Below are positions 46,236 to 48,851 of a DNA stretch of 64,000 nt, piece after piece (positions within the stretch are counted from its first letter, which is position 1; every line of letters begins with the position of its first letter). Source of the stretch: Paenibacillus sp. sptzw28. Lineage in GTDB: Bacteria > Bacillota > Bacilli > Paenibacillales > Paenibacillaceae. The position numbers were made by a program, and so were the translations under genes. Where the stretch lies: assembly GCF_019550795.1 (NCBI RefSeq), contig NZ_CP080545.1, positions 3,010,001 through 3,074,000 of the forward strand, in the 5' to 3' direction. The notes under the pieces were generated by a model that made no database searches, was not told where the DNA came from, and worked only from the letters and a program-made list of their open reading frames with translations.

Positions 46236-46264
46236 TTGACGATTCGGGTTCGAAACGGTATTAT
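46236..46264 (+). promoter_or_regulatory. Sigma-A promoter of the candidate ncRNA
   Basis: TTGACG (46236-46241), a 17-nt spacer and TATTAT (46259-46264). Predicted start near 46271. It lies only 12 nt after the MBL-fold gene stop. Confidence 0.75.
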
Positions 46265-46296
46265 AGACATAACTTTACAGGCAAGGGGAAATTTTA

Positions 46297-46323
46297 ATGT
46301 TTGTCGGTGTTCTTAACTCGTAA
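46297..46323 (+). CDS. Possible 8-codon leader peptide
   Basis: ATG at 46297 with AAGGGG 8 nt upstream encodes MFVGVLNS and ends at TAA 46321. The ORF spans the whole 5' arm of the RNA's closing helix, so its translation would compete with that pairing. So short an ORF could be chance. Confidence 0.35.
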   Translation: MFVGVLNS

Positions 46324-46344
46324 TTGGATAGAATGGCACACAAT

Positions 46345-46436
46345 CCACTGTAACCGTTAGACGTCATCTCTATGACGGCTCGGTTATCAGTCCCACTGTA
46401 ACCGTTAGACGTCATCTCTATGACGGCTCGGTTATC
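46345..46436 (+). repeat. Two identical 44-nt hairpin repeats in tandem
   Basis: Copies at 46345-46388 and 46393-46436 are identical and separated by AGTC (48-nt period). Each folds as TAACCG/CGGTTA, an internal loop, then CGTCAT-CTCT-ATGACG. Confidence 0.9.
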
Positions 46437-46607
46437 CGTACCGTAACATCAGGGATCGTTAATACGGTCACCGGGTTATAGTACCTGGAGCATGAAGAAG
46501 TACAGCTGCGCTTGTCATCTGCACAGGCTTTGTTCAGCTATACTTATTCACTTGTGTGCCGCCAAGAGTTAAGAACATGACGATTTCCGCCTGCTGACGG
46601 CAAATCC

Positions 46608-46632
46608 GCGTGCTCTTTGAGCACGCTTTTTT
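46608..46632 (+). terminator. Terminator of the candidate ncRNA
   Basis: GCGTGCTC-TTT-GAGCACGC followed by six T. Confidence 0.9.
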
Positions 46633-46712: not shown

Positions 46713-46759
46713 AAAACACAGGAATGGAATGCGCATGCGTTCTGTTCTTGTGTTTTTTT
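46713..46759 (+). terminator. Second terminator, directly before the MutS2-like gene
   Basis: AAAACACA pairs with TGTGTTTT and the stem continues nearly unbroken with several G-U pairs down to a GCGCATGC tip, followed by TTT (seven T in a row in all). The G-U pairs only work in plus-strand RNA. It lies 49 nt before the start codon. Between the two terminators 81 nt hold a palindromic TCCTGCAGGA but nothing I can name. Confidence 0.8.
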
Positions 46760-46808: not shown

Positions 46809-48851
46809 ATGAACGAAACGACCTTGAATAAATTGGAATTCGATAAAATCAAACATATGCTGAACGGATTTACCGTATCTCCATCGGGGATGCAGCTTGC
46901 CGCCAGACATGTACCGTCCGCTAATGAAATGCAGGTCCGGGCGTGGCTGAAAGAGACGGAAGAGGCGGCGAATTTACTGGCAACCGGTGCAAGCATCCCA
47001 CTGTCCGCAATGGAAGGGATGGAACCGTTCATAGCACTGCTCGGCAAGGGGAAAATCTATACCGAGCAGGAGCTCGGTTACCTGGCTTCATGGCTGGCGG
47101 CCGTTGCCCAGATGAAACGTTATATGGAAGCCAAACGATTTGCGGCGCCTACCATTAGCGGCTACGCCGATTCGATGCACGACTGTCCAGAGCTGCGCAA
47201 GGAATTGGACCGGTGCATCAGGCACGGTATGCTTGCAGACCAGGCGAGCCCCTTGTTAGCCGATATCAGGCGTCATATTGCCGCTGTGGAAGATAGGATA
47301 GAGCGCAGGTTGAATCAAACGCTCGGAAAATACAAATCCGCCCTTCAAGAGCAAATCGTAAGCAAGCGCAACGGACATTATGTTATCGCCGTCAAACGTG
47401 AGCTTCGCAAGCAGGTGCCCGGTACGGTATGGGATGAATCGGCAAGCGGTCAAACCCTGTTTGTCGAACCTGTCGATGTTGCGGAGCTTCAAGCGGAATG
47501 GCAAATGTGGAAGGCTGAGGAAGAACGCGAGCGGACGGTCATTTTATCCGAGCTGTCGGAAATAGCCGAGCAGCAGGCGGAACGGTTAAGGTGGAATGCG
47601 GAAGCGATGGCTTCCTTCGATTTTATCTTCGCGCGGGCGAAGCTGTCGAGAACATATGACGGTATTCCCGTTAGCCTTACGAATCGACCGTATATCAAGC
47701 TGGTTGGCGCAAAACATCCCCTGCTGGGGTCAAAGAGCGTACCGCTTGACGTCGAGCTCGGAGGCGCATGGCGACAGCTTATCATCACCGGGCCGAATAC
47801 CGGAGGGAAGACGGTTGCACTGAAGACAATCGGCCTGCTTGCGCTTATGGTTCAAGCCGGCCTGCTGGTGCCTGCTTGTAAAGGGACTGAATTCGGCTTG
47901 TTCCAGCATATTTTGGCCGATGTCGGCGACGGTCAAAGCATTGAGCAATCGCTTAGTACCTTTTCGGCTCATATGGCTAGTTTGAGGGAAATGATGACGT
48001 CCGCGAATGAACGCTCGCTCATTCTACTCGATGAGCTGGCTGCCGGCACCAATCCGGATGAAGGAATCGCATTGTCAATCGCGGTTCTTGAAGAGCTGCT
48101 CGAGAGGAGATCGTTCGTAGCTGCAACGACTCATTTTAATGAAATCAAACGTTTTGCCGCCGAGACACCTGCATGCACGAACGCCCGTATGGCGTTCGAT
48201 GCGGAAACGCTTAAGCCGCTTTACCGGTTGGAAATCGGCGAGGCCGGCGATAGCTATGCATTTGCTATTGCCAGACGTTTCGGGCTGCCGGAACGGATTG
48301 TACTGCGGGCAGAAGCGAGAGCGGCTGCATATAGGTCGAATGGCGTAGCGCAGCCAGATAACCGGGCGGCCGACATCAGGAAAGAGCCGACCGGAACGAA
48401 CGATAAGGTATCCGGTACGACAGGCAGCTTGAATGCTATTAATCAATCCAATGTACAATCGGGAAAATCCATTGGCTCGCCTTCCGAGGTCGTACACGGC
48501 ACTGGTATCGATATGATGCTTGCGAACAATGAGTTGGACCAGACTTCCGCAAAACGCCCGTTTGAAGTCGGCGACTGCGTCTGGATATATCCGCTCAAAC
48601 GGACCGGCATTGTATTTAAACCGGCTAACGAACGGGGAGAGGTTGTCGTTCAGGTGCAGAAAAACAAGCTGACATTCAACAGGAAGAGACTCTCGTTATA
48701 TATCCCGAATCATAAGCTGTACCCTGGTACGGACTATGACCTGGACATCGTGTTCGAAAGCAAAGGAAATCGTAAAACAAAGAAGCTCATGGGCAGAAAA
48801 TATGTACCGGGTCTTGAAATAGTCACTCCGCCCGACGAGACGCAGCAATAA
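46809..48851 (+). CDS. MutS2-like ATPase lacking the Smr domain
   Basis: 680 residues. N-terminal MutS core/lever regions with a coiled-coil clamp, then the MutS ATPase: Walker A TGPNTGGKT, ADVGDGQSIEQSLSTFS, Walker B ILLDELAAGTNPDEG and ATTHFNEIK. A low-complexity linker (about 510-575) leads to a KOW/SH3-like segment (VGDCVWIYPLKRTGIV). MutS2 proteins are normally about 780 residues and end in a Smr nuclease domain; this one stops before it. MutS2 binds recombination intermediates or collided ribosomes; which applies here is unknown. Ribosome site AGGAGG. Confidence 0.87.
   Translation: MNETTLNKLEFDKIKHMLNGFTVSPSGMQLAARHVPSANEMQVRAWLKETEEAANLLATGASIPLSAMEGMEPFIALLGKGKIYTEQELGYLASWLAAVAQMKRYMEAKRFAAPTISGYADSMHDCPELRKELDRCIRHGMLADQASPLLADIRRHIAAVEDRIERRLNQTLGKYKSALQEQIVSKRNGHYVIAVKRELRKQVPGTVWDESASGQTLFVEPVDVAELQAEWQMWKAEEERERTVILSELSEIAEQQAERLRWNAEAMASFDFIFARAKLSRTYDGIPVSLTNRPYIKLVGAKHPLLGSKSVPLDVELGGAWRQLIITGPNTGGKTVALKTIGLLALMVQAGLLVPACKGTEFGLFQHILADVGDGQSIEQSLSTFSAHMASLREMMTSANERSLILLDELAAGTNPDEGIALSIAVLEELLERRSFVAATTHFNEIKRFAAETPACTNARMAFDAETLKPLYRLEIGEAGDSYAFAIARRFGLPERIVLRAEARAAAYRSNGVAQPDNRAADIRKEPTGTNDKVSGTTGSLNAINQSNVQSGKSIGSPSEVVHGTGIDMMLANNELDQTSAKRPFEVGDCVWIYPLKRTGIVFKPANERGEVVVQVQKNKLTFNRKRLSLYIPNHKLYPGTDYDLDIVFESKGNRKTKKLMGRKYVPGLEIVTPPDETQQ

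Follow-up and report, generated by a model that had tools for sequence, protein, structure and literature searches.

The gap between a metallo-hydrolase-like gene and a MutS2-like ATPase gene in Paenibacillus sp. sptzw28 raises the question of what RNA it specifies, and whether that RNA acts in trans or on the gene behind it. Our window is the whole 64,000-nucleotide stretch of DNA that was analysed (contig NZ_CP080545.1, positions 3,010,001 to 3,074,000), and an initial annotation of its letters had proposed that this gap holds a large structured RNA with its own promoter and terminator. The long-range 12-bp helix on which that proposal leaned is a perfect inverted repeat, and the fold is indeed far beyond chance, with a forward-strand energy of -132.8 kcal/mol (z -6.8) that none of 100 shuffles equalled. 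Because the reverse strand folds much alike (z -7.4), the strand is not given by the fold alone. The trailing terminator and the TTGACG-17-TATTAT promoter were also found where they had been placed (Table 1), while the annotation had overlooked a mini-ORF, a second terminator and the antiterminator pairing.

The annotation had recognised no tmRNA, RNase P, SRP, 6S, T-box or standard riboswitch, and our Rfam search of the window agreed with it, giving 0 matches at or above the gathering threshold; in a weak Rfam search the best match reached 17.5 bits against the 60.2 needed, and lay on the other strand. ARAGORN found no tRNA or tmRNA at the locus. Readings as a tmRNA, a 6S RNA (which lies elsewhere in the genome) or an Rfam riboswitch were rejected on these missing Rfam or ARAGORN matches.

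Table 1. Features of the leader and its surroundings; positions are those of the window unless stated otherwise.
Feature	Position	Strand	Remarks
Upstream metallo-hydrolase-like gene	ends 46223		5' border of gap
Promoter TTGACG-17-TATTAT	46236..46264	+	scores 10/12
Shine-Dalgarno (SD) AAGGGG of mini-ORF	46283..46288	+	
Mini-ORF ATG TTT GTC GGT GTT CTT AAC TCG TAA	46297..46323	+	8 codons, MFVGVLNS
5' arm of P1 (anti-antiterminator)	46308..46319	+	within mini-ORF
Two 48-nt dispersed-repeat copies, variable loop	46345..46440	+	outside conserved core
3' arm of P1	46566..46577	+	
Antiterminator strand AAGAACATG	46571..46579	+	alternative partner 46609-46617
Antiterminator upper hairpin CGATTTCCG...CGGCAAATC	46581..46606	+	
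Terminator T1	46608..46632	+	46608-46626 plus U-run; 5' half 46609-46617 = antiterminator partner
Second terminator T2, then U's	46713..46756	+	T-run; recurrent hairpin sequence
MutS2-like ATPase gene	46809..48851	+	680 aa, no Smr domain; regulated gene; own ribosome-binding site
BpsA-like gene, second leader copy	5845290-5846447 of contig		outside window; PF01861

A conserved leader accompanies the MutS2-like gene

A DNA search matched 33 of 98 relatives, and 29 of the 30 listed loci shared two common blocks, one being the ORF region and the other the 3' arm with T1; the remaining locus (L018) matched the repeat only and was dropped. The MutS2-like gene lay downstream in all 29, and for 6 of them no metallo-hydrolase was found upstream. 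A model of the 3' block (R1) matched 95 of 295 genomes of the family. We fetched 80 more loci, plus 16 named loci chosen by protein, removed 37 duplicates from 154 loci and left out one locus without the gene (L114). A script seeking an SD, an ATG, 7 or 8 codons and a stop recovered the ORF in 115 of 117 non-redundant loci with the gene, a count that holds partly by construction, as the script demanded a stop, and that includes one ORF (L091) mis-picked by the script and then corrected. The two exceptions were L047, in which the leader lies farther upstream, and L142, which has none directly upstream. R1 had served to choose many of the other loci, so a fair count comes from loci picked by the MutS2-like protein, where the leader was present in 38 of 39, namely in all 16 named loci (12 of which repeat loci already counted) and in 22 of 23 loci (L137-L159) chosen for lacking an R1 match. 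The thirty-ninth is again L142, whose leader heads a cluster that runs from BpsA to the MutS2-like gene. On this comparative evidence, the RNA is the 5' leader of the MutS2-like gene, and its structure is real and deeply conserved. The annotation had offered either a trans-acting RNA or a complex leader for this gene; the second part stands, as the leader travels with the gene, and the first, a free-standing trans-acting large RNA, was rejected as unsupported, though the leader might also act in trans.

Individual loci depart from this layout. In L047 (CAVE-418), several hundred nucleotides of repeated sequence are inserted between T2 and the gene start, with the leader intact. At one place in G073 (L162 and L215), what looks by eye like a group II intron-like reverse transcriptase element sits behind T2, where the MutS2-like gene would be expected. 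At one place in G418 (L182 and L238), the leader looks intact and the MutS2-like match begins only from about residue 189, in short frames, so that the gene there may be interrupted or divergent.

The leader also precedes a second gene family

Searched with a pattern made of the SD and ORF start, 124 of 296 genomes of the order, from 25 of 48 genera, gave a match, and a reversed control pattern had none among the matches listed. The same pattern occurred in 35 of 398 genomes sampled across the class, 10 of them in one other family (f32), in which 9 of 9 loci among the matches listed precede a protein of about 390 aa with PF01861 (BpsA), not MutS2; another match of the class search (L190) was rejected as due to chance. 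A pattern of P1 only matched 130 of 286 genomes. We inspected 42 loci (30 listed and 12 hand-chosen for second copies or other genera), of which 34 had a MutS2-like gene downstream and 7 a BpsA-like gene, and in the remaining one the gene is hidden by a group II intron-like element; the 34 include one locus matched on the opposite strand, whose leader was not read (L252), and one whose MutS2-like gene matches in part only (L238). This genome itself carries a second leader (L200, contig 5845290-5846752), which has a T1 and a T2 of its own and stands in front of a BpsA-like gene.

Promoter matches lie upstream of the mini-ORF and two predicted terminators precede the gene

Across 3 kb, sigma-A-like promoter matches were not beyond chance (3 found, 3.4 expected), and it is their position that recurs among relatives. 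A promoter match of at least 9/12 lies upstream of the mini-ORF in 114/114 leaders, which are related to one another, against 16/114 in single-base shuffles; one leader without T1 (L140) was left out of this count. Matches of the same quality lay between T1 and T2 in 3/114 (6 in shuffles) and after T2 in 2/114. Given no promoter excess between T1 and the gene in the 114 leaders, a separate promoter for the gene behind T1 or T2 was rejected. On these counts, the gene is seemingly reached by read-through of two terminators. A T-run between T1 and the gene was present in 112 of the 114 leaders, and the hairpin sequence of T2 is a recurrent one. In genus g4 (L138-L141), T1 is unclear or absent and T2 is kept, with a P1 arm GTTCAGATCTC and a matching 3' arm; regulation in these four may run through T2 alone.

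Two pairings compete for the 3' arm

The 3' arm has two alternative partners: the mini-ORF, which contains the 5' arm of P1, and the 5' half of T1, with which it would form an antiterminator. Compensatory change supports both pairings, the antiterminator more clearly. Compared with partners swapped among leaders, own antiterminator pairs came to -9.3 against -7.9 kcal/mol, and 0 of 1000 swaps were as good (87 unique pairs), although the leaders are related and these counts are not a probability. T1 had been found as a terminator, blind to this pairing, and the test kept the mis-assigned T1s of L037, L139, L153, L157 and possibly L138 and L141, with L140 out. Two control segments, namely the 5' arm and the 18 nt that follow the 3' arm, gave no gain for own over swapped partners. 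By eye, the partners are AAGAACAUG with CGUGCUCUU here, AACAGC-GGAU with AUCC-GCUGUU in L144 and GAACUAC with GUAGUUC in L152.

For P1, the corresponding test (own -16.5, swapped -14.3, 0 of 1000 as good) is biased, as complementarity had been used to place the 3' arm. With arms left free to choose their best site, 12 of 18 variant leaders favoured their own variant arm over the common one, 4 showed a tie and 2 favoured the common arm. Over 61 arm pairs, thinned from 97 unique ones and read in a register that we set, 97.9% of P1 cells were paired and 38 had changed on both sides, against a shuffle mean of 13.6 and 0-8 in slid controls, with 28 of the 38 belonging to the terminal pair. Most of P1 is beyond covariation testing, since a single 10-nt sequence accounts for 97 of 115 5' arms, and P1 is broken or imperfect in L010, L090, L091, L112, L149 and L150.

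For transcripts of three leaders cut off in the T1 loop, masking by a ribosome at the stop codon made the antiterminator the predicted structure, and P1 was predicted when there was no mask. Once T1 was fully transcribed, it was the more stable even with the ribosome masked, and the antiterminator as a thermodynamic optimum was rejected for the complete T1; antitermination must then be kinetic, as attenuators usually are. A possible second antiterminator, serving T2, was considered by eye only.

The mini-ORF keeps its frame and length more than its peptide

Among loci found by P1 alone, an ATG precedes P1 by 12 nt in 41 of 42, and its frame has a stop at codon 8 or 9. Loci found with the ATG but no stop in the pattern gave 51 unique sequences, all of which stop (49 at codon 8, 2 at codon 9; TAA 44, TAG 4, TGA 3), four opposite-strand artefacts having been excluded from the stop counts; the all-stop count over all leaders, by contrast, is partly so by construction, as the ORF finder demanded a stop. 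The SD, start, length and stop of the mini-ORF are conserved, which points to an ORF that is probably translated. About 60 peptides occur over all leaders, with codons 2-4 free, codon 5 encoding Val in 124 of 125 sequences (the 4 artefacts included) and codons 6-7 usually Leu-Asn.

Two lineages (of L093 type and L138 type) have changed codons 6-7, giving VHNS and VQIS, and their 3' arms have changed too, with one mismatch left. These variants weaken a conserved arrest peptide as the sole signal, and RNA pairing, more than the peptide, seems to be under selection. In leaders with VFNS (L077, L080, L084, L085) the 3' arm would pair equally with the common arm, via wobble.

A ribosome-mediated attenuator is the favoured reading

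We interpret the leader as a cis-acting, ribosome-mediated transcription attenuator of the MutS2-like gene, to which we assign a probability of roughly 0.78. Comparison among leaders supplies its parts, their conservation, the mutually exclusive pairings and the link to the gene, with no other promoter seen. The leader contains a putative ORF of translated type with its own ribosome-binding site, this ORF overlaps the anti-antiterminator strand, and anti-antiterminator, antiterminator and terminator exclude one another, P1 being imperfect in some leaders. When off, the mini-ORF RNA would pair with the 3' arm as P1, T1 would form and transcription would stop. When on, the 5' arm would be covered by a ribosome lingering on the mini-ORF, and the freed 3' arm would capture the 5' half of T1 while it emerges, letting RNA polymerase read on. 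Ribosome occupancy would on this scheme mean activation, and a short terminated transcript from the leader should exist. A general slowing or stalling of translation is the most likely signal, ahead of a single amino acid or an arrest peptide. A ribosome engaged on an ORF this short would sit over the 5' arm, so that the leader is most simply read as sensing occupancy or stalling, and the switch may respond to ribosome occupancy itself.

A more specific signal would account for the near constancy of V5, L6 and N7. It could be an antibiotic arresting this particular peptide or a small molecule sensed by the ribosome, such as a polyamine, given that the second target is BpsA-like. Polyamine-sensing uORFs exist in eukaryotes. 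For antibiotics, the MsrD leader offers a precedent in arresting with macrolides, according to the part of that report drawn on here (PMC10314930). We nevertheless consider such a signal unlikely, given that residues 6 and 7 change along with the 3' arm in the two variant lineages, as RNA pairing predicts, and that a polyamine-induced stall would turn a polyamine gene on, which is the wrong sign for feedback.

Less probable again is that the mini-ORF plays no part and the leader is a riboswitch that binds a ligand, or binds a protein. The sensor would then be the apical hairpin that many leaders have between the P1 arms, together with the U-rich strand, resembling UUUAUU or UUUGUU, that follows it. 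Motifs of this type occur between the arms in 85 of 136 leaders against 15.8 expected from single-base shuffles, the motif having been picked after the sequences had been seen. Against this reading, the ORF has retained its start codon, its spacing and frame, and a stop that may be any of the three stop codons; the span from mini-ORF start to 3' arm varies from 102 to 305 nt across leaders; and no Rfam family matches. The apical hairpin and U-rich strand may also be a pause site, a protein site or a third input. Very improbable is a trans-acting small RNA that merely adjoins the gene upstream: its own promoter and strong terminator would fit, a short RNA being expected to accumulate, but in the loci inspected the leader precedes two gene families across the order and beyond, and no other promoter apparently serves the gene.

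The loop between the P1 arms also holds the "two identical hairpins" of the annotation. The copies are real and stand in tandem, and they are dispersed repeats rather than part of the conserved structure, so that they were rejected as a functional core. The 48-nt repeat, which forms hairpins, occurs at 10 places in the genome including this one (73-100% identity), with copies at the 9 other places at 73-82% identity and some in tandem, and is also found in at least 4 relatives; here it occupies a loop that differs among relatives.

The type of mechanism is known, and the leader and its targets appear new

The proposed mechanism is of a known type. The leader appears to be new, as do its targets and the two-gene set: no description of this leader, of its MutS2-like target or of the set was found in the titles and opening abstract lines of the papers listed in the literature searched, a body that lacked many subscription papers. 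The likenesses below draw on portions of the cited reports. Closest in layout are the HflXr/rli80 leader of Listeria (PMC6310831) and the uORFC-6-1 motif before hflX (PMC8632094), where a ribosome-splitting-factor paralogue stands behind a short ORF overlapping an anti-antiterminator, with an antiterminator and an intrinsic terminator. HflXr has a 14-aa peptide with an RLR motif, whereas here there are 7-8 codons without RLR, before a MutS2-like or BpsA-like gene; T2 is present here, and the portions of those two reports mention no second terminator. The main text of PMC8632094 mentions no Paenibacillus, Brevibacillus or MutS. The MsrD leader (MsrDL) likewise has a short leader peptide and a stalled ribosome that obstructs a Rho-independent terminator (PMC10314930), but it senses cladinose macrolides through its peptide, and here peptide identity is not strictly kept. 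In Bacillus subtilis, attenuation by the BmrB leader of bmrCD needs leader ORF translation and is induced by protein-synthesis antibiotics (PMC4191407); there, unlike here, a drug transporter is controlled and the terminator lies inside the leader ORF. The toiL uORF of E. coli topAI resembles our case in that a single uORF responds to several classes of translation stress (PMC12121999), and differs in acting via translation and Rho, with no intrinsic terminator.

The product is a MutS2-like protein without an Smr domain

The 680-aa protein matches the MutS2 family model TIGR01069 at 593.8 bits (cut-off 400) and the MutS_V ATPase domain (PF00488), and aligns with solved MutS2 over residues 2-508; what we take to be its Walker motifs are kept, by eye. 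It has no Smr domain, and neither do five orthologues, in which the stretch scanned for Smr reaches to within about 7 codons of the frame end. The MSSS (KOW/SH3-like) profile did not match the window protein and matched 1 of the 5 orthologues below cut-off. A canonical MutS2, with Smr and an SH3/KOW-like MSSS, is encoded elsewhere in the same genome.

In B. subtilis MutS2, KOW and SMR recruit the protein to collisions and the ATPase splits stalled ribosomes; a Walker-B mutant is as erythromycin-sensitive as a deletion, and KOW and SMR mutants only modestly so, in the portion of the report used (PMC10897456). As splitting is the function of the ATPase, a paralogue without Smr could still split ribosomes, and by MutS2 homology the product probably helps to rescue them when stalled. 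Against such a role, the recruiting KOW/SMR route appears to be lacking, with no Smr and no MSSS match, and the paralogue would need another route to stalled ribosomes. The NCBI MutS2 equivalog model ("endonuclease MutS2") recognises this paralogue. If the leader does answer to stalled ribosomes, the job of the protein is probably in translation, not DNA repair, and the leader offers a regulatory clue, and hence a direct test, for the function of the MutS2 paralogue.

A possible two-gene regulon

The BpsA-like protein matches PF01861 (E 1.3e-41) and has no NCBIfam match, and a GDDD motif, as expected of BpsA, is present in its sequence; the family match suggests a branched-polyamine synthase. 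This enzyme family is best known from thermophiles, and the common leader would link it to the same signal as the MutS2-like gene in these bacteria. In Thermus, ribosome stability and some tRNAs are reported to depend on long and branched polyamines (PMC12979288), so the MutS2-like and BpsA-like products could both aid strained translation. Leaders before a polyamine-enzyme gene suggest a small, previously undescribed regulon for translation trouble. More tentatively, and at somewhat less than even odds, the leader would define a regulon of two genes for translation distress in Paenibacillales and in a further family of the class. Any ribosome delayed on a near information-free mini-ORF would induce a MutS2 lacking Smr, which splits ribosomes that have stalled; some genomes would use a second leader copy to induce a branched-polyamine synthase as well, which stabilises ribosomes, the two together making an inducible ribosome-rescue system. 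If so, it would likely confer intrinsic tolerance to ribosome-targeting antibiotics.

The BpsA-like gene of this genome was not found in 19 other relatives checked, which suggests that it may have been acquired by transfer. In L245 (G183), one leader is followed by a BpsA-like gene, then by HAD-type and acyl-carrier-like genes (by eye) and a MutS2-like gene, all co-directional.
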